Shown here: in pieces, positions 27,265 to 62,202 of the stretch | How positions within the stretch are numbered: position 1 is the stretch's first letter | How the letters are laid out: every line of letters begins with the position of its first letter | Assembly: GCA_022829145.1 (NCBI GenBank) | Contig: CM040765.1 | Span: 13,789,792-13,853,791, forward strand | Direction of reading: 5' to 3' | DNA length: 64,000 bases | Origin: Albula goreensis | Taxonomy: Eukaryota > Chordata > Actinopteri > Albuliformes > Albulidae | Program-made: the position numbers and the translations under genes | Notes under the pieces: generated by a model | The model's database searches: none | Told to the model about the DNA's origin: nothing | The model's input: only the letters and a program-made list of their open reading frames with translations

Positions 27265-27379
<115 letters not shown>

Positions 27380-35440: not shown

Positions 35441-35455
35441 TTTTCTTCATTCCAG

Positions 35456-35539
35456 TCACAATGAACGGAAGGTGACCTGTAAGCACCCTATCTCAGGTTT
35501 ACCCTCGCAAGACACCTGCATCTTCATCCTCAGTGAACA
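35456..35539 (+). CDS. plekha5: plekha5 exon: C-terminal half of second WW domain
   Basis: 84 nt, entered in phase 2 and left in phase 2. It encodes HNERKVTCKHPISG, then LPSQDTCIFILSEQ. The first part is the last strand of a WW domain (the HN...T..HP pattern; here the usual second Trp position is Cys-Lys, as in PLEKHA5 WW2). The acceptor is a long (TC)n tract ending in ttccag; the donor is gtgagt. The preceding exon should end in ...YYIN with two bases of the shared codon; I could not find it. A reading that started inside this exon has no in-frame Met, so it must be spliced to upstream coding sequence or be part of a 5' UTR. Confidence 0.9.
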
Positions 35540-38500
35540 GTGAGTTATCCTCAAATTCAGATAATCTTTACTGACCAAACATCAGCATGTAATGCCAAAG
35601 CATAATGTTTAGAACACTGTCTGACTGGAGACAGACAATAATACTAATAATCAACAATAATACCACGCACAAAATGTTTTTTTAAATGTGTTTGAAGTGT
35701 CCTCTTGACATATTTCTTTGCGGAGCTGGCAGACAATTCCAGTAGTGTTTAGCTGTAAAATTAAAGGGCTTTAATAAGGCCAGTAGCACTGAATATCTTT
35801 GAGTAATGCTCAATGTAAAGTGTTATTTTGTGACGACTGAGGCACCGTGATGCTTAAAGGTAATTACTGTGATCCCTGCTGTTTTGTATAGGCGAGTGAG
35901 TAAGATGGTTTTTATCATAAAATGTTCTGAGTACTGTTATCTTTACATCTGGATAATGGACTAGGCTCCCATCCGGGGGGCATGATGTCTTATATCAGCC
36001 TCTTTAGAGAGTATGAAAAGACTACTGCATTTTTTCAGGATTACTTACACTGAGTCTTTACCATCCCCTCTTACAACTATGAAGGCAAGGCATTCTTCAT
36101 GTAGTGCTATATACAATTAGAGTTGATATATATAGAGTTGTGATATATAGATTGAATGAAAAACTTAATCCTGTTTTCATTAAAACACTTTTCCCCCATT
36201 TGCTGTCTGTTCTGGAATACCAAGGAAGAACACACGTGCTGTTGCCCTGGCAACCAAACAGGCCCTCTGGGTAGCATGCTACTGTCAGTTAAAATATTGT
36301 AGCACATTTTTGTATTTTACAATGCACATACAGAGCACAAGACACAGTCCGAAAGAATGTAAGACATCATTCGAATGGATCAGGTTTCTTTACTTTTCCT
36401 GCTTTAGTTTTGTGATCTTACCAAGATGTTGAGAAATTTGTATTTGCGCAGGAAGTAACCTCACCTGATATTGAAACCTCACCTCATATGGCAAGTACCT
36501 GATCAAAAAAGAAAGACATGTGCAGGATTCAGCACTGCAACAGCTCGCCTTTGTGGTATAACATAAAATTCCCTGAAGGAAAAAATCTGTTAGTTCTTTT
36601 GAATTGCATCCTTAGACCTACCTCCTGTGAATTGATCTGATTAGTGAAATAAAGTTGTGAATGTCTTCAAAGCAGGCACTTTTTGAACTACTTTTGCCAA
36701 GCTTGTAGTGGATTGGTATAAGTCTGGCAGCAAACAAGCCTTACACAGTTACATATATAATCATATTCACAAAATGGGGGAAAAGTATGATATATTTTTT
36801 TAATGAAATGTTTATGTAGAGCCGTCATTCCCCAGGGAACGCAAAGGGGTATTATGTAAAACAGTGACGCTCTCCTGGGGACTGTGAGAGCAGCTGCAGA
36901 AGGAGCCATATAGCGCTGTGAAGTACAGTATGTGATCCTCCTTCAGAAGACAGATGAGCTCAAGTGCTAATCCTTGCTTTTTAAAATAAATCTGTCAGGA
37001 AGGCCGCAAGGCCAGTCATGTGGGGGTAAGGGGACGGGGACGGGGGGTGGCATATGTAGGTACTTATGAAAAAATATTGTGGATGTAATTTAGAAATGTT
37101 GTCAGTAATCTGTTAGCCTGACTTTTCGGGCTTATACCTATAGGCTTGACAAGATACAGCCTCAGCTTTTGGCGTAACGTGAGCTCAACCTCAAGGATAT
37201 GTAATAACCCAGTGCACAGCTACTGCTCCAGAATAATCACATCTTGTGTACACAGGACTCCGATTTGCACCTCCTCAGAGCCCGAAAATTGTCTGATGGT
37301 TCATCTGGCACCAATGAAATTGCAGGCAGACTGTGCCAAAGGATAAGTGCATGTTTTCCAGACTCTTCATCAGAGATTATCTGGAGTTGGGAATATTTAA
37401 TCTGTTGTAAAGTTATTGTTGTCTAAAGGGTTAAAGTATTGTATTCTTTATCTCATTACGTTCTGTCTCCCTTTTGTCACTGTTCCTCCCACTCTCCTCT
37501 CAGTCAAGAGCTTCCTGTCTGCAGGACAGTTGAGTGTGCCACAGTGAAAGGAAAATCGATTCAGTAGTTGACGTGGGTGAGCTTTGGGATACCTCAGAAG
37601 TGTGCAAGAATGCAATCATGGACGAGAGCTTAGCACAGCTGAGAAGATACTTATCCACTAGTATTGTACCCAGGATCTAAACAATAATGTCCAATTCTGT
37701 ATCCAGTATGTATTCAATAGTGCTGGTTCTGATTTCAGGATGTAACAAATAGGTTCCATGTTATAAATAGCTTTTATTCAGTTGTTTCCTCTAGTGCCCA
37801 TTGTCACTGCACAGTGACTCCCATGCTGTGTTCAGTATCTATCCAGCAATGCCTGCATGCCTCCAGCTCACATCTGTGAAAGTCAGCTTTTGGGCTGATG
37901 TGCTGGGTGACATCACACATTTCAGTGGTCAGTGTGTGCTCTAGTCTGCGTCTCCCAAGCGAATGTCTGAGGCTGAAGCAATCTGCAGTGTGATACAATG
38001 CATTCAGGTTCGGGGGAAAAACAGGGACAGACACCTTTTGTATTTTTTGGGTTTGTTTGGGGCCAGATATTTAGTACACAGAGCAGGATTATATGAAAAC
38101 TGAGGGGAAAAACTAAGCCATGCGGCTCTGAAATTGGCTCTTGAAATTGTCACATTGGGCTCTATTTTAATGGTACAAACACATGGCACTACAATGAGAA
38201 TAAGAATATTACCTAAAGTAATTGCTGCCTTGCTCCTCAATTTTGGTCCTCAAAACTAGTATGTGGTGTCAGTTTGGCAGTGGTAGAATGTGACTGTATC
38301 ATAGCCACAGCTGTTACACACCAAACAAAACAATAATTATGTATAATATAACATTTTTATGTTATTGAGGCACAAGTTTCAACTGTAAAAATAGATCTCA
38401 TTATGTTTTATGTGTCTTTAATTTTCATTTGTGTGCATATCTGCCCCTCAGATAATACTGTTTAAGAAATAAATGTTTTGAAGGCATTCACCACAGTCCA

Positions 38501-38899: not shown

Positions 38900-39143
38900 G
38901 TAGTTCCTTTTTTCTGGAGTGCACAGATAAATTGGTGGTGGGGGGAATTAGCTCAGGGCGGAAATGAAAGAGAATGTTGGAGTGCTGGGACTGCAGGGGG
39001 TAAATGTGGATTTATGGGGCGATGGATGGCGGGGCCTCTCATGGTAACGAGGTTACCCACCCTGCAGTGCCAGCTCATTTCCTGCCTGTGGCCCTCGCTG
39101 CAGGATTAATGCCCTCCCTCTCCCTGCACCCTCTGCCCCTCAG

Positions 39144-39219
39144 CCCTCCTCCAGAATTACACCCCCAAACCTTCACCTCATCCCTCCTCCAGAATTACAC
39201 CCCCAAACCTTCACCTCAT
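39144..39219. repeat. 38-bp tandem duplication
   Basis: Two identical adjacent copies beginning ccctcctccagaattacacc, with a partial third start. Confidence 0.92.
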
Positions 39220-39889
39220 CCCTCCCTCCTCCAGTCAGGCGAATGTCACTTACTGTACAGAGAGAAGAAAGTGCCTTTCAGGCTGAACTTCTGCCGTTCG
39301 CCTGCAGTCAGGGATGGGTATGTTTAGAAACATTTTATTATCTGAACTGACTAATAGATTTCCATAAAAACCTCCTGCTGGACTAACAATAAACTTCAAC
39401 AAATTTCCCTGTGTTAGAGTGTAAGTTTAATTGTTTGAAGAATAAACACAGCTATGGTTGGAAATTATTATTTCAGTCTGAATCGAAGGATAGCAATCCT
39501 CTTGTGGGCCTCACAGGCACTGAATGAAACTAAGATTTTCAACAGAAAGCTCATGCTCCCTTTGGCCCCGCCCAGTATAGGCTATTCTCAAAGAAAGTTT
39601 AATTTACTCTGGTTATTTATCAAGCAGTTCCTTCACACATCCAAAAAGAAAATAGTTTTTCATGACCCCCCATCTTTTCTCCGAAAATCCAATTCCCAAT
39701 TCCCAATGTTCTCAGGTTGAATTCTTTGCAACAAAATCTGCAGTCAATTAAGAAAAGTACAGACAATATCATGTTATGAGAACAGGCACTACACAAGTTG
39801 AGCTTGTCCCAGCATGAGACCCAACAAGGTATCTCATATGCAGCAGTCACTGAAAGAATTGTCATAAATTCTCAGTCATTGTTAGCGCT

Positions 39890-42295: not shown

Positions 42296-42416
42296 ACCGG
42301 TTCCCAAAACACCAGCGAACGAAAAGAAGGACCGCCCCCTGAGCACGATGACCGACGCCTCCATCTGCACCAGTGGGTCTGACTACGCCACCCATCCGGG
42401 CAGCCCCCCGGGCAGA
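42296..42416 (+). CDS. plekha5: plekha5 exon: WW-to-PH linker
   Basis: 121 nt, acceptor ctcccag and donor gtgagt, entered in phase 2 and left in phase 0. It encodes PVPKTPANEKKDRPLSTM, then TDASICTSGSDYATHPGS and PPGR. This matches the low-complexity linker of PLEKHA5 between WW2 and PH (EEKKERP...SDYAVHP in mammals, from memory). It contains the first in-frame Met downstream of the WW half-domain, at 42,348, in an acceptable start context (A at -3 and A at +4). A WW-less isoform could start there, but no transcript evidence is available. Confidence 0.92.
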
Positions 42417-43025
42417 GTGAGTACCCCCACCTGCCCCTCTCTCCTCACCGCTATATGGTGGACATTAATGATGACACAGTGAGGCGTCATGAAACCGAAA
42501 ACGGACAGGGCTAGCGAGCTACCATATGCTATTAGCTACATACTGGCTTTAAATAGTCACAGTGTTTTGCTGTGGAGGGTCGGCCTTTGGGTTTGCTCAA
42601 ACAAAGATGATTAGCAGCTTATTTTTTGCTCCATCCATTATGTATTTTACCTTCAAGCTTCCAATAAGCAGAGTTCTCAGCCGTTTGGTCAGGTCAGGTT
42701 GCATGCTTTGTTTTTGAAAAATTGTATAACTTGTCAGACTATATGTGCTGGTTATTTATTGGACATATTTATTGGAGTTTTTTGTGGTTCATGTATGTTA
42801 TCCATAGTGTGGAAGAATTGGAGTCAATGCTTATTTAATGCTTATTAAAGGTGTTATTGTTTGATTGAAGTGATAGATGTAATGTAATATGCTACATAGC
42901 AGAAAATTGGTCATTAGGACCCAGCCATTGCCTGATGTATGGCCATCTGTATGGGTATGTTCCCCCAGTGGGATGGAAAGACTAACTGAATTGTGAGCAT
43001 CAATTTGTGCATTTTCAATTCTCAG
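42417..43025 (+). other. plekha5: plekha5 intron (609 bp)
   Basis: GT-AG intron. Nothing distinct was seen in it. Confidence 0.9.
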
Positions 43026-43130
43026 CCATCAAGACCCTCAAAGAAAGTCCACAATTTCGGGAAGAGGTCCAACTCCATAAAGAGGAATCCCAATGCCCCT
43101 GTTGTGAGGAGTGGCTGGCTGTTCAAGCAG
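43026..43130 (+). CDS. plekha5: plekha5 exon: start of PH domain
   Basis: 105 nt, phase 0 at both ends, acceptor ttctcag and donor gtgaat. It encodes PSRPSKKVHNFGKRSNSI, then KRNPNAPVVRSGWLFKQ. The basic stretch KKVHNFGKRSNSIKR immediately before the PH domain and the first PH strand (VVRSGWLFKQ) are characteristic of PLEKHA4-7. The basic run plus the later KKRW motif is where phosphoinositides are expected to bind. The frame stays open for about 70 codons past the donor into a (GA)n repeat, but that part has no family similarity and is intron. Confidence 0.96.
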
Positions 43131-46998: not shown

Positions 46999-47071
46999 GA
47001 CAGCGCAGGAATGAAACTCTGGAAGAAGAGGTGGTTTGTGCTGTCTGATATGTGCCTGTTCTACTACAGAG
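46999..47071 (+). CDS. plekha5: plekha5 exon: PH domain, strands 2-3
   Basis: 73 nt, acceptor atcccag and donor gtgagt, phase 0 in and phase 1 out. It encodes DSAGMKLWKKRWFVLSDM, then CLFYYR plus the first base of the next codon. The K-x-W-K-K-R-W-F-V-L motif is the hallmark PH core, and its basic residues line the lipid headgroup pocket in this family. It joins the preceding exon at ...LFKQ|DSAG and the next at YYR|DEKEE without loss of frame. Confidence 0.97.
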
Positions 47072-47386: not shown

Positions 47387-47487
47387 ATGAGAAAGAAGAA
47401 GGAATCCTTGGAAGTATTCTTCTGCCTAGCTTTCATATTTCAATGCTTTCTGTGGATGACCATATCAATAAGAAGTATTCCTTCAAG
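47387..47487 (+). CDS. plekha5: plekha5 exon: PH domain, strands 4-6
   Basis: 101 nt, acceptor tctacag and donor gtcagt, phase 1 in and phase 0 out. It encodes (D)EKEEGILGSILLPSFH, then ISMLSVDDHINKKYSFK. The DEKEEGILGSI segment is nearly invariant in PLEKHA5/6, and DHIN.KY.FK is the PLEKHA5 form of the next strand. The intron before it is only 315 bp, short compared with the neighbouring introns. Confidence 0.97.
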
Positions 47488-49136: not shown

Positions 49137-49252
49137 GCCACGCACCCCAACATGCGGACCTACTACTTCTGCACGGACACGGCCAAAGACATGGAGTCCT
49201 GGATGAGGGTGATGACTGATGCAGCCCTGGTGCACACAGAGCCAATCAAGAG
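49137..49252 (+). CDS. plekha5: plekha5 exon: end of PH domain with C-terminal helix
   Basis: 116 nt, phase 0 in and phase 2 out, donor gtagaa. It encodes ATHPNMRTYYFCTDTAKD, then MESWMRVMTDAALVHTEP and IK plus two bases of Arg. HPNMRTYYFCTDT followed by a Trp-containing helix (ESWMRVM..AA) is the PH C-terminal strand and helix of PLEKHA5. The acceptor (ctcgaccag) is weak. A more pyrimidine-rich AG lies 45 nt upstream, but its use would bring an in-frame TAA at 49,107. Confidence 0.96.
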
Positions 49253-49605
49253 GTAGAAACAGTGATGACATCAATCAGAGGGGGCAGTTTAAAAAACACA
49301 GCCATTACAGTTTATGTCATGTAAATTATCTTCTGTCTTTGAGAAACCCATTGCAAGTGATCAGAATGCATAATTCAGCTAAATGGAACTTTCTGCCCAC
49401 AACTTGAATGGAACCTGTGTGTGAAATAGATCTGCTTCTTTCTTTCCTTCTCTCCCTCTTTATCCTTCTCTCCCTGTCTCTGCCTCTTTCACCTTCTCTC
49501 CTTTATCTCACTCCATCTTTTGTATCTTCATTTCTCACAATATTTTTGTTTTTTGCTCCCCTCTTTTCCTCCATTTCTCTCTGCTCTATCTTGCTCCCTC
49601 TGTAG
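49253..49605 (+). other. plekha5: plekha5 intron (353 bp) with long pyrimidine tract
   Basis: GT-AG intron. From about 49,430 to 49,600 it is almost pure C/T interrupted by short A-containing steps. This is an unusually long polypyrimidine tract before the giant repeat exon and a possible landing site for PTB-type splicing factors. Confidence 0.9.
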
Positions 49606-51084
49606 GCAGAAGATGGAGCGCTGTATCGTGCAGGAGATGAACAGTACTCTGTGCCGGCGGGTTGTGACCCGGCATGAGGCCCATCAGCAGGTCCTGGTCC
49701 AGTCAGAGATGCAGAGTAAAGACATACCATGGGAGGCAGCGGTCCAGTGTGTCCAGGAGAGGGAGAGGAGGTCAACGGATAGTGGGAGGGCTGGAGAGAG
49801 CTACGATGTGCAAAAGGATGGAGCAGAAAGGCCGCGGCCCAAGAGCAGCAGCTCCAGACTGCAGCCCAGCCAGGCGGCAGCCATCGTAGCAGCTGTGATT
49901 TCTTGCGCACACCAGAGCAACAGTGCTGCTCCCCAGCAGGTCAGCCAGTACAAGGTCGCCCAGGTGAATGGGGCAGGGGACGTCAGCCAGGTGGAGGATG
50001 TGAATGCTCCACCCACCAGGGCCTCCACTCACGCCCTCCCCCAGAGAGACTCCACCCAGCCTCAGGCTCTTCCCCAGAAAGACCTCACGCAATCCCAGCC
50101 GCAGACTCAGAAAGACTCCGCCCATTCTCAAGCCCCTGCCCAGGTGGACTCAATCTACTTTCAGACCATTCCCCAGAGAGACTCCGCTCCTCCGCAAAGA
50201 GACCCCGTTCAAAGAGAATCTACCCATCCCCAGCCCCAGAGAGACTCCACCAATTCACAGGCCCTTCTCCAAAAAGACTCCACCCATTCACAGGCCCCTC
50301 CCCAAAGAGACTACACTCAGTCACAGGCCCCTCCCCAAAGAGACTCCACCCATTCACAGGCCCCTCCCCAAAAAGACTACGCTCAGTCACAGGCCCCTCC
50401 CCAGAGAGACTCCATCCAATCACAGGCCCCTTCCCAACAAGACTCGACCCATTCACAGGCTCCTCCCCAAAGAGACTGCACCCATTTACAGCCCCCTCCC
50501 CATAGAGACGCCACCCATTCACAGACCCTTCCCCAAAGTGACTCCACCCATTCGCAAGTACCTCCTCAAAGAGACTCCAGCCATTTACAGGTTCCTCCCT
50601 ATAGAGACTCCACCCATTCACAGGCCCCTCCCCTAGTAGACACCACCCATTTACAGGTTCCTCCCTATAGAGACTCCTCCCATTCACAAGCCCCTCCTCT
50701 AGTAGACTCCATTCATTTACAGGTTCCTCCCTATAGAGACTCCACCCATTCACAAGCCCCTCCCCTAGTGGACTCCACCCATTCACAGGTTCCTCTCCAA
50801 AGAGAATCCAGCCATTCCAAGACCCAGAGAGATCCAGCCCATTTACAGACATCTCACCTAAGAGATCCTGCAAATACCCAGCTCCATAGAGACTCTTCCC
50901 ATTTCCAGGCTTCTTCCCAGAGAGACCCCGCCCAGTTTCAGACTCTCCCCAAGAGAGACTGTTCCCGTTCTCAGGCGCCTCCTCAAGAGCCTGAGAAGAC
51001 CTTACAGAGAACTAACTCCATGCAGCAGCTGGAGCAGTGGGTGAGGATTCAGAGAGGGCGGGTCCAAGAGGATGACACCAGGAG
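49606..51084 (+). CDS. plekha5: plekha5 giant exon: disordered linker with 11-residue repeat array
   Basis: 1,479 nt (492 full codons), phase 2 at both ends, acceptor tctgtag and donor gtgagg. The first 125 or so residues are ordinary linker (RQKMERCIVQEMNSTL..., then YDVQKDGAERPRPK, which resembles YGFQKDGQDRP in mammalian PLEKHA5). From about 50,037 to 50,987 follow about 30 imperfect copies of an 11-residue unit, consensus QAPPQRDSTHS. It then returns to conserved sequence, TLQRTNSMQQLEQWVRIQ, ending in EDDTRR. The repeat is rich in Pro, Gln, Ser, Thr and Asp, with almost no hydrophobic residues and no membrane segment, so it is predicted to be disordered. The mammalian interval between these landmarks is, from memory, a few tens of residues. 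The insertion keeps frame exactly and has no stop, which argues that it is translated. Confidence 0.93.
50037..50987 (+). repeat. coding minisatellite, 33-nt unit, about 30 copies
   Basis: The unit encodes QAPPQRDSTHS with changes such as QKDYAQS, HRDATHS, YRDSTHS, LVDSTHS and QRESSHS. Most units are exactly 33 nt; a few at the edges are shortened (for example QRDPVQ and KTQRDPAHL). Positions 50,588-50,785 hold three near-identical 66-nt double units (YRD type followed by LVD type). Degeneracy is greatest at both ends and least in the middle, as expected if unequal exchange homogenises the centre. Confidence 0.95.
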
Positions 51085-51821
51085 GTGAGGAGATGGTGGG
51101 CTGGCGATTATGGGAATTGTGGTCCGTGTCATATTGAGCCTTCATCATCCAAACAATACATGCAAATTGTTTTGCAGTTTCAGCATCATTGCCAACCCCT
51201 GACATAAAAGCCTTATTGTTTAGATTAACTTGTGAGAGTTTTGATGTTACTTTGAGTGTTTATAATATTCTCTGTACCTCCTCCACTTCTGTAAACAGTT
51301 TACTGAGCGCTCACACTGACAACAGCAAAATGTGTAAATGTACAGAAAACTGCACACCAGCAGAATTGCTTCTCTATGATTTTCTTCCACTTTGTATTGA
51401 TTTTAATTCACACTAACAATGCAGGAGATAATGGCATTTCATATTTTCATATATTTACAGTAGCCTTTATTTTTGAGGAAAAGATATTTGAAAATACAAG
51501 GCGGCTCATTCATTTTCACCCCAAGTTAAAGTGGGAAGTTATTTCCATTGATCAGCTCTGGACGTGAATAGATCAGTTTCCTTGGGCTTTTTTAAGTTAG
51601 AAGAAAATGTAAGCACAATTCTGCCCATTAGCTGTGTGATATTAGAGGGAAATATATACACAGTTTCATTGGCTCTCTAGCATTCCAGGGAAGAGTAAAT
51701 GCTTTTACAATTGGCTCCTCTTTGTTGGAGGGAAATATAAGTGATTTTCCCATTGGCTCTTGAATGTCATGTGGAAATGTAGCATAGTTCTCATTCGCTT
51801 TTCCATCCGTTTACTTTCCAG
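51085..51821 (+). other. plekha5: plekha5 intron (737 bp)
   Basis: GT-AG intron, AT-rich. Between about 51,600 and 51,790 a motif of the form 'ggaaatata...cattggctct' recurs about three times, a weak degenerate tandem repeat. Confidence 0.85.
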
Positions 51822-52879: not shown

Positions 52880-54646
52880 ACTCCATGGAGCACATGTCAG
52901 CTAACACCTTGTTCCTGTCATGCTCAACTCCAGCTCACCACCACCCCCTACAGGCTATTGTGTTTACTGCGGTCAGACAAATGACATGACTGGCTATGGG
53001 GGTTCATTTTTCATCTCTCAGCATGTGTTCAGTGGCCTGATTCCATCCTTTGTGAATATCTCAGAGCTCAGGAAGTCCTACTGGAGCATGATTTCTTTAC
53101 TTTCAGGGCCTACTTAGTGTGTGTCTTTGAAAAAAAAATGGTCCAGAGGAGTTATGGGATTTTTCCCTCTAAGAATTGCTCAAACATGTTTTTTTACTTT
53201 TTTCTGTTTGACTTTGCTAATTGTGTAGTGCGGAACATTTTCATTTTGAAGTGTTTATTGGTTGCATCTCTGCACGAGACACCTAATCTGATAGAGGGTC
53301 TGGATAACTTAATTAACTTTTGTGGAATGGGCTTCCTGCAGTCTGATTGGTGCGAGCACATATCTGAGAGTAGCTTTGATTGGCTGTGCTGGTTTATCAT
53401 TTCACACCCCTATCCCAGACACTCTGTGTCCACTCTCACAAGTTTTTGATTTGTCAAGTAGTAACTGGCCACTGGCTGACTATGAAAGTGCATCCTTATA
53501 AACTGAGCAGACCTCGACTGCATTGAGTGAGAAACTAATCAGGCTTTTATGAGAGAAGCTAGTCGGGCCTGTCTTTATGAGCTTTAGAAAGAGAGGCTAC
53601 ACTCCCTCCATAACGTCTGACATCTGTATGTTTATTTACTGCCCTTGTGAGATTCATTGATGCATTTGGCTTCAAACCACTGCTGATGGGGGCTGCAAGC
53701 TCACCAGTTTTCCAAGCAGGAAGTGACACGCTGAACTGAGACAGGGCGCAGAAGGCTACTGTGAAAGAGTGTTTTCTCTGGCAGCGGCAGGCGGGGGTGC
53801 TTTTGGAAGCGGTCCTGGAGCTGAAGGGCTCACGGCTGCTGTACAGCATGAGGCCGGTGTGTTTAATTAGCCGGGCTCCTCCAGTGTGAATGACATACTA
53901 AATAAGCAATCAGTTCAGCCTGGACGAGGTAAAACTGGTTTGCATCGCGGCCACATGCCACGCTCACGCCCCAGTGCCGTCACGGCCAGCCTCTTGTGAA
54001 TGTGGCACTATGCCATGTTTGGGGAATCTGCAGAATATCTTATGTGCCTAAAGTAAGTGCACATACTGTTTGGGAGGTACCCGGTTGTGATTGTCATATC
54101 AGATGGTTTGAAGGAAGTGCACCATTTAGAATAAGGATATGAAGATGACAACACAGTAAAATACCACAGAAGACATAATGTTGCAAACATTTCTGTCGAA
54201 TAACCTCCTTCAGTGCATAACACAAGACCAAATCTTTATACATAGAAGTCACGTGATAAGAGTCACATGATTGAGCCAAATGGTAGTTCAAGAGAAAAAC
54301 TTTTTATCAAGAAATATTAATGGGCTAGACACAATCAAGCACTCTCTTTGAGAGCAGATGCAGTTAAATCAAAACACTTTACTTCAAGACATAATTTCTT
54401 TGAGTATGTGTTTTTTTTTACTGGAGACAGTAAAAAAACAAGTTAGTATCATTTTTGTACTGTCTGAAACAGAATAGTGCAAGCCGTTCAAGGACTTAAG
54501 GCCATTTAAATTGAATTGCAAATGAAGAAACCATGTGTATTTGATTGAATATAGTCAGATGTTGCAGGATTAGAAATAAGAAGGAAACACATATGAAACT
54601 TTGGCTGTGACTGTGACCATATTTTCTGTCACATTCTGTCTGGCAG
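52306..54646 (+). other. plekha5: plekha5 intron (2.3 kb)
   Basis: GT-AG intron with a TG tract at 52,847-52,878. No other feature was recognised. Confidence 0.88.
52847..52878. repeat. (TG)16 microsatellite
   Basis: 32 bp of pure TG in a plekha5 intron. Confidence 0.96.
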
Positions 54647-54730
54647 TATGTCTACCCACCTGACCGGAGGCTCCTGACCGCTACTATCCCTGTCCAAACT
54701 GTCACCGCACAGAGCCTGCAGAGCAAGACG
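54647..54730 (+). CDS. plekha5: plekha5 exon: PPDRR segment
   Basis: 84 nt, phase 0 at both ends, acceptor ctggcag and donor gtaaga. It encodes YVYPPDRRLLTATIPVQT, then VTAQSLQSKT. This matches the mammalian PLEKHA5 segment remembered as HVYVPDRRS...QSVSPQSLQGKT. It follows the RRHRKHVTQ end of the previous exon directly. Being a multiple of three with matching phases, it can be skipped in frame. Confidence 0.93.
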
Positions 54731-55076
54731 GTAAGAGAGCAGAAAAAGGAGCTCTGTTCTCAATTCTCTTTTTTCTGTAACATTATTTTGAATTTTGCAT
54801 GCGTCCTGCATTTTTATTCTTTGCACATGGACTAATTTATTAATTTATACATAGTCTAACTATTAAGCTTTTTCCTGCCCTTGTAATGCCATTGAATATT
54901 TGCAAAGTGTAAGTATGGTATGGCTGGCAAATGTGTGCAGATTTTCAATGCTGTAGACAAAACATCCTGTGAAGACTATGAAGATCTGCTGAACTGAAAG
55001 GGACTGTCCAAATAAAGCCCTGGGGTTCAGAATTTACATTTAATTTAAAAGACAAATATATGCATGCATACATACA

Positions 55077-56084: not shown

Positions 56085-56204
56085 CCTGAGGAGCTGACCC
56101 TGCTGCTGATCAAGCTGCGGAGGCAGCAGGCCGAGCTGAGCACCGCTCGCCAGCACACTTTAGCCCAGCTCCTGCAGCTCAATCTCGATGGCGCCAACCC
56201 AAAG
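56085..56204 (+). CDS. plekha5: plekha5 exon: leucine-rich coiled-coil-like cassette
   Basis: 120 nt, phase 0 at both ends, donor gtcaga, acceptor within a C-rich tract ending cccag. It encodes PEELTLLLIKLRRQQAEL, then STARQHTLAQLLQLNLDG and ANPK. The spacing of Leu and Ile in LTLLLIKLRRQQAEL and LAQLLQLNL suggests an amphipathic helix. I recall a similar cassette in long isoforms of PLEKHA5, but I cannot check it here. The frame reads on into the intron, but the similarity stops at NPK and the donor is good. Confidence 0.9.
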
Positions 56205-62121: not shown

Positions 62122-62202
62122 ATGAAAGAGAATGACCCACTTATCTTCATGAGTCACACAATGATTGAGAACTCGGCTCCAAGGCCCCAGCTGTACCAGC
62201 AA
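62122..62202 (+). CDS. plekha5: plekha5 exon: MKENDPLIF...ENSAPRPQLYQQ
   Basis: 81 nt, phase 0 at both ends, acceptor aaaatag and donor gtaagg. It encodes MKENDPLIFMSHTMIENS, then APRPQLYQQ. The segment lies directly after LFLDSQ in the spliced protein. It has no recognisable domain and is probably a linker before the C-terminal coiled coil. It begins with an ATG, but this is internal to the frame and there is no reason to see it as a start. Confidence 0.88.

Follow-up and report, generated by a model that had tools for sequence, protein, structure and literature searches.

A probable coding minisatellite in Albula goreensis plekha5 that would lengthen a flexible linker of the encoded scaffold protein

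A single coding exon of plekha5 in Albula goreensis contains 31 head-to-tail units of a 33-bp, 11-residue repeat that together encode 323 residues in one open frame (50018-50986). We consider it likely that this array is a coding minisatellite that has expanded into a long, probably disordered, flexible tether under weak constraint. Positions are those of the window, the whole 64-kb stretch of DNA that was analyzed. The features of the gene and of the array are as follows.

43026 to 43130, + strand: exon, start of the PH region; match to the human PLEKHA5 probe, GT-AG joined model, Pfam PH match on the joined exons
46999 to 47071, + strand: exon, PH domain; match to the human PLEKHA5 probe, GT-AG joined model
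47387 to 47487, + strand: exon, PH domain; match to the human PLEKHA5 probe, GT-AG joined model
49137 to 49252, + strand: exon, end of the PH domain (HPNMRTYYFCTDTAKDME...); match to the human PLEKHA5 probe, GT-AG joined model
49606 to 51084, + strand: plekha5 exon of 1479 bp with linker, array, and RTNSMQQLEQW; phase 2 at both ends, GT-AG borders, open joined frame
50018 to 50986, + strand: coding minisatellite of 31 units, consensus DSTHSQAPPQR / GACTCCACCCATTCACAGGCCCCTCCCCAAAGA; Tandem Repeats Finder and in-frame reading of units
50276 to 50407, + strand: 66-bp dimer in two copies, DSTHSQAPPQR-DYTQSQAPPQR type, 63 of 66 bases identical; unit listing and dimer comparison
50573 to 50770, + strand: second 66-bp dimer in three copies, DSSHLQVPPYR-DSTHSQAPPLV type, 60 to 62 of 66 bases identical; unit listing and dimer comparison
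50987 to 51084, + strand: tail EPEKTLQ and conserved RTNSMQQLEQWVRIQRGR segment directly 3' of the array; 32 residues aligned to the human comparison sequence at 62.5% identity
51822 to 52305, + strand: exon 3' of the array (TLPRKMPSQRAQVVSRYPEGYRTLPRNS...); match to the human PLEKHA5 probe, GT-AG joined model

The six exons between 43026 and 52305 have GT-AG borders and join into 786 codons with zero stops. Pfam PH matches the joined exons at 5.8e-20, and among solved structures the PH domain is nearest to PLEKHA5 (2dkp, 229.7 bits), ahead of the best PLEKHA6 (152.6 bits), the best PLEKHA7 (141.1 bits), and PLEKHA4 (125.1 bits), so the name PLEKHA5 given to the gene in the first-pass annotation holds. 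Relative to the human comparison sequence, identity is 62.5% over 32 residues in the RTNSMQQLEQW segment and 58% over 158 residues in the TLPRNMPS...YPEGYRTLPRNS segment. With human PLEKHA5 as the probe, further exon-like matches lie at 35454-35540 (WW region, 72% over 29 residues), 42315-42422, and 54644-54745. PLEKHA5 would be expected to have tandem WW domains ahead of the PH domain, but in positions 1-35400 of the window this probe revealed no convincing exon for the first of them; it may be diverged or lie beyond the window. Pieces closely resembling the long PLEKHA5 isoform (PEELTLLLIKLRRQQAEL..., NEILSHHLQRN, and MKENDPLIFMSHTMIENSAPRPQLYQQ) were also picked up by the probe at 56085-56204, from 58816, and at 62122-62202. 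As judged from these matches, the gene probably spans at least 35.4 to 62.2 kb. It shares with PLEKHA5, of the PLEKHA4/5/6/7 subfamily of WW-PLEKHA proteins, the PH domain, a candidate part of the WW region, and the RTNSMQQLEQW and TLPR segments, and the array occupies the disordered region described between the PH domain and the coiled coil in an excerpt of PMC8983885. It differs in its 323 residues of 11-residue repeats, which the human comparison sequence lacks.

Tandem Repeats Finder reported a period of 33 at 50234-50817 (17.7 copies, 76% matches, score 664), and reading the exon in frame extended the array to 50018-50986. Twenty-four of the 31 units are full length, at exactly 11 residues, and a 7-residue tail reaching 51007 brings units and tail to 32 pieces. 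The array lies where it had first been placed, between the flanks YDVQKDGAERP and RTNSMQQLEQW, and its position in frame within a coding exon is borne out by the open frame and the GT-AG borders. The original estimate of about 30 copies is sound as a count of degenerate units. The string proposed as the repeat, QAPPQRDSTHS, is the unit DSTHSQAPPQR read from another start, but as an exact string it occurs only once. Internal stretches that do not consist of 33-bp units (50180-50242, 50804-50830, and 50864-50890) restore the codon register in all three cases. With a unit length divisible by three and a regain of register after these length-variant stretches, the frame stayed open.

No second copy of the array was found in the 64-kb window, where 10 matches lie outside the exon, each of 11 to 15 bases. 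Two other repeats were seen in the window: a 38-bp tandem repeat at 39138-39225 (2.3 copies, 98% matches), presumed intronic, and an uninterrupted series of 56 GT dinucleotides at 27267-27378. Scanning the window for Rfam families and tRNA genes gave no matches, and the stop-to-stop frame 49430-51088 matched no solved structure up to an E value of 10. Searches for relatives of the central array (50243-50803) gave 46 pattern-matching stretches in prokaryote genome contigs and 4 in viral contigs, and a search of viral contigs for relatives of the downstream conserved exon gave another 4; none was confirmed, as is expected for a vertebrate gene.

The 24 full units have a mean pairwise DNA identity of 0.716 (minimum, 0.42). 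Identity to the consensus is 0.79 to 1.0 for the 17 central units and 0.61 to 0.79 for the 7 full edge units. In the list of full units, those two apart are on average more alike (0.777) than neighbors (0.721), consistent with duplication of dimers. The near identity of the central dimers (60 to 63 of 66 bases) points to recent copy number change or ongoing homogenization. This speaks against the array being old and widely shared among fish plekha5 genes instead of a recent lineage-specific expansion. Such an origin, which we judge plausible but less likely than not, would be compatible with a minisatellite-derived tether. In its favor, the edge units, down to 0.61 identity with the consensus, look old, and some teleosts keep two plekha5 copies, 5a and 5b, according to an excerpt of PMC8983885, one of which could have carried an array throughout. 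Among the matches listed for PLEKHA5 with tandem repeats, zebrafish, or intrinsic disorder, titles and abstract openings mention no such array. Tandem repeats are prone to assembly error, as stated in an excerpt of PMC6868369, and a wrong count of the near-identical dimers is possible. That misassembly produced the array itself, or its number of copies, is very improbable in our judgment, given that the units differ from one another to the extent described above and that the exon has an open frame along its whole length.

The interval from QKDGAERP to RTNSMQQ is 391 residues long, made up of 61 residues before the array, 323 in the units, and 7 in the tail, versus 69 residues in the human comparison sequence. 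By this comparison the linker greatly exceeds its human counterpart, in agreement with the first-pass annotation, and the array appears to be close to a pure addition to it. By the customary scaling of disordered chains, 391 residues would span about 18 nm on average versus about 7 nm for 69. The array has an Uversky value of −0.205, a coarse measure by which the folded PH region is also just negative (−0.005), and its net charge is −3. As described in an excerpt of PMC8983885, human PLEKHA4/5/6/7 proteins have two long disordered regions, one of them running from the PH domain to the coiled coil, and these regions are highly divergent in sequence. A longer disordered spacer at this position is the simplest role for the array. 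A coding minisatellite in plekha5, expanded partly as 66-bp dimers, would yield a nearly neutral spacer of 323 residues, rich in Gln, Pro, Ser, and Thr, whose composition makes disorder probable. The most likely consequence would be a lengthened flexible tether joining the PH domain, which binds membranes, to the remaining scaffold. The spacer itself would engage in little sequence-specific binding, and weak constraint would keep the array open, soluble, and disordered.

The reading frame fits coding use. The array frame has no stops in 990 bases, while the other five frames have 6, 7, 23, 20, and 2; in 2,000 base-shuffled copies the mean was 8.8 stops, and every copy had at least one. Measured against the consensus, 47 of all 136 differences are synonymous in the real frame versus 36.3 at random placement (P = 0.023), as are 20 of the 56 distinct changes versus 15.1 expected (P = 0.007). 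These P values are rough, since the units share descent and the counts are not independent, and over six frames with two tests each, one reverse frame also reached P = 0.041 in the distinct-change test. Three single-change stops enter the substitution count for the real frame and are not stops of the sequence. The pN/pS ratio is 0.69 in the real frame (bootstrap, 0.57 to 0.86), 0.96 and 0.92 in the two remaining forward frames, and 0.76 to 0.78 in the three reverse frames; by position, the central units (17) give 0.84 and those at the edges (7) give 0.60. Asp1 and Gln6 are invariant in all 24 full units, although each is encoded by two different codons (GAC 23 and GAT 1; CAG 20 and CAA 4). Protein-level constraint on the array looks real but weak. 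An antisense frame of 263 codons is open over most of the array (50223-51011, − strand), which in our view arises from codon use and the 33-bp period and does not point to a gene.

The first-pass annotation had also foreseen ligand-like sites for SH3 and WW domains and many possible phosphosites. The former are not supported: PP pairs are enriched (16 versus 6.8 in residue shuffles), yet PxxP occurs once versus 6.8 in shuffles, and PPxY, LPxY, PPLP, and S/T-P are all absent from the array, which holds one class II SH3 motif and none of class I. SH3/WW docking as the main role was set aside on this absence of a repeated PxxP or PPxY core. As to the latter, R-x-x-S/T (15 versus 4.7) and S/T-Q (24 versus 12.4) are both above residue shuffles, as are [RK][DE][ST] (14 versus 0.6) and PxxDY (2 versus 0.1); CK2-like sites are not enriched (4 versus 6.8). 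These excesses follow from repetition, because any repeated unit multiplies the motifs within it, and they do not show phosphorylation. Together with the invariance of Asp1 and Gln6, the enriched motifs might suggest a functional multivalent docking region in which S/T-Q or R-x-x-S/T sites would be phosphorylated, or PxxDY sites would bind an SH3 domain, and whose copy number would be under selection. We regard this as quite unlikely, in view of the origin of the enrichment in repetition, the depletion or absence of the other motifs, and the weak constraint among the central units.

The array could also be viewed as sequence that is removed from the message, wholly or in part, as an exitron or a mis-called intron, in which case the long linker would be missing from much or all of the mRNA. 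Upstream of the array lies one candidate donor.

49961 to 49969, + strand: candidate donor-like site CAG|GTGAAT, cut after 49963, upstream of the array; score 8.9, versus 10.2 for the exon's own donor

The score of this site is within the range of the six model donors (4.0 to 11.4). By general splice matrices and a threshold of 7.5, set by the weakest of the six model acceptors, the 990-base array contains 14 acceptor-like sites (the best, 12.6, at 50909) versus 2.75 per kb elsewhere in the window, and all 14 keep the frame. Codon-synonymous shuffles of the array protein average 11.4 such sites, however (P = 0.13), so that coding sequence rich in Pro, Ser, Thr, and Gln largely accounts for them. 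The AG-free stretch ahead of the array sites is 8 to 19 bases in 13 cases and 23 in the other, in contrast to 26 to 174 at the six model acceptors, but this comparison is not sharp, as background sites of equal score have a median of 22. The stop-free frame and the invariance of Asp1 and Gln6 likewise fit coding use, and we consider removal of the array by splicing unlikely. Highly unlikely, in our estimate, is a splice-tunable tether, in which the donor after 49963 would be joined to any of the 14 in-frame acceptor-like sites, all of them candidates. If true, a single exon would give a ladder of PLEKHA5 linker lengths, to which copy number change would add rungs.

In its anatomy the array is typical of coding minisatellites: its tandem unit is longer than the 10-bp minimum of the class, has a length that is a multiple of three, and lies within an open exon. 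MUC1 and others are coding minisatellites, or intragenic tandem repeats. With those such as yeast HPF1 (excerpt of PMC7263189), the array has in common an in-frame, multiple-of-three unit, degenerate edges, higher-order duplications, and a low-complexity product; it differs in that its host is the linker of a scaffold protein and in that it is known from one sequence.

Pfam PF16058 (Mucin-like), which occurs in an excerpt of PMC7594059, has a cutoff of 28.7 bits, exceeded by the array alone (40.1 bits) and by its 187-residue core (31.1 bits) but not by the whole exon (28.6 bits) or the longer reading frame (27.3 bits). Two residue shuffles and one reversal of the core gave no match, while one of three column-permuted copies scored 21.7 bits, indicating that much of the match derives from composition and period. 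The match was set aside on these controls, and we read it as a likely reflection of shared composition and period, not of ancestry. Pfam nonetheless labels the excised array as mucin-like, which could mislead automatic annotation.

Apart from this annotation point and the length of the linker, the array is an ordinary coding repeat. The PLEKHA5 scaffold helps proteins to reach the cell edge, among them the copper pump ATP7A, as described in an excerpt of PMC8458771. If other fishes lack the array, it would provide a natural experiment in which the effect of disordered-linker length on such a membrane scaffold could be studied.
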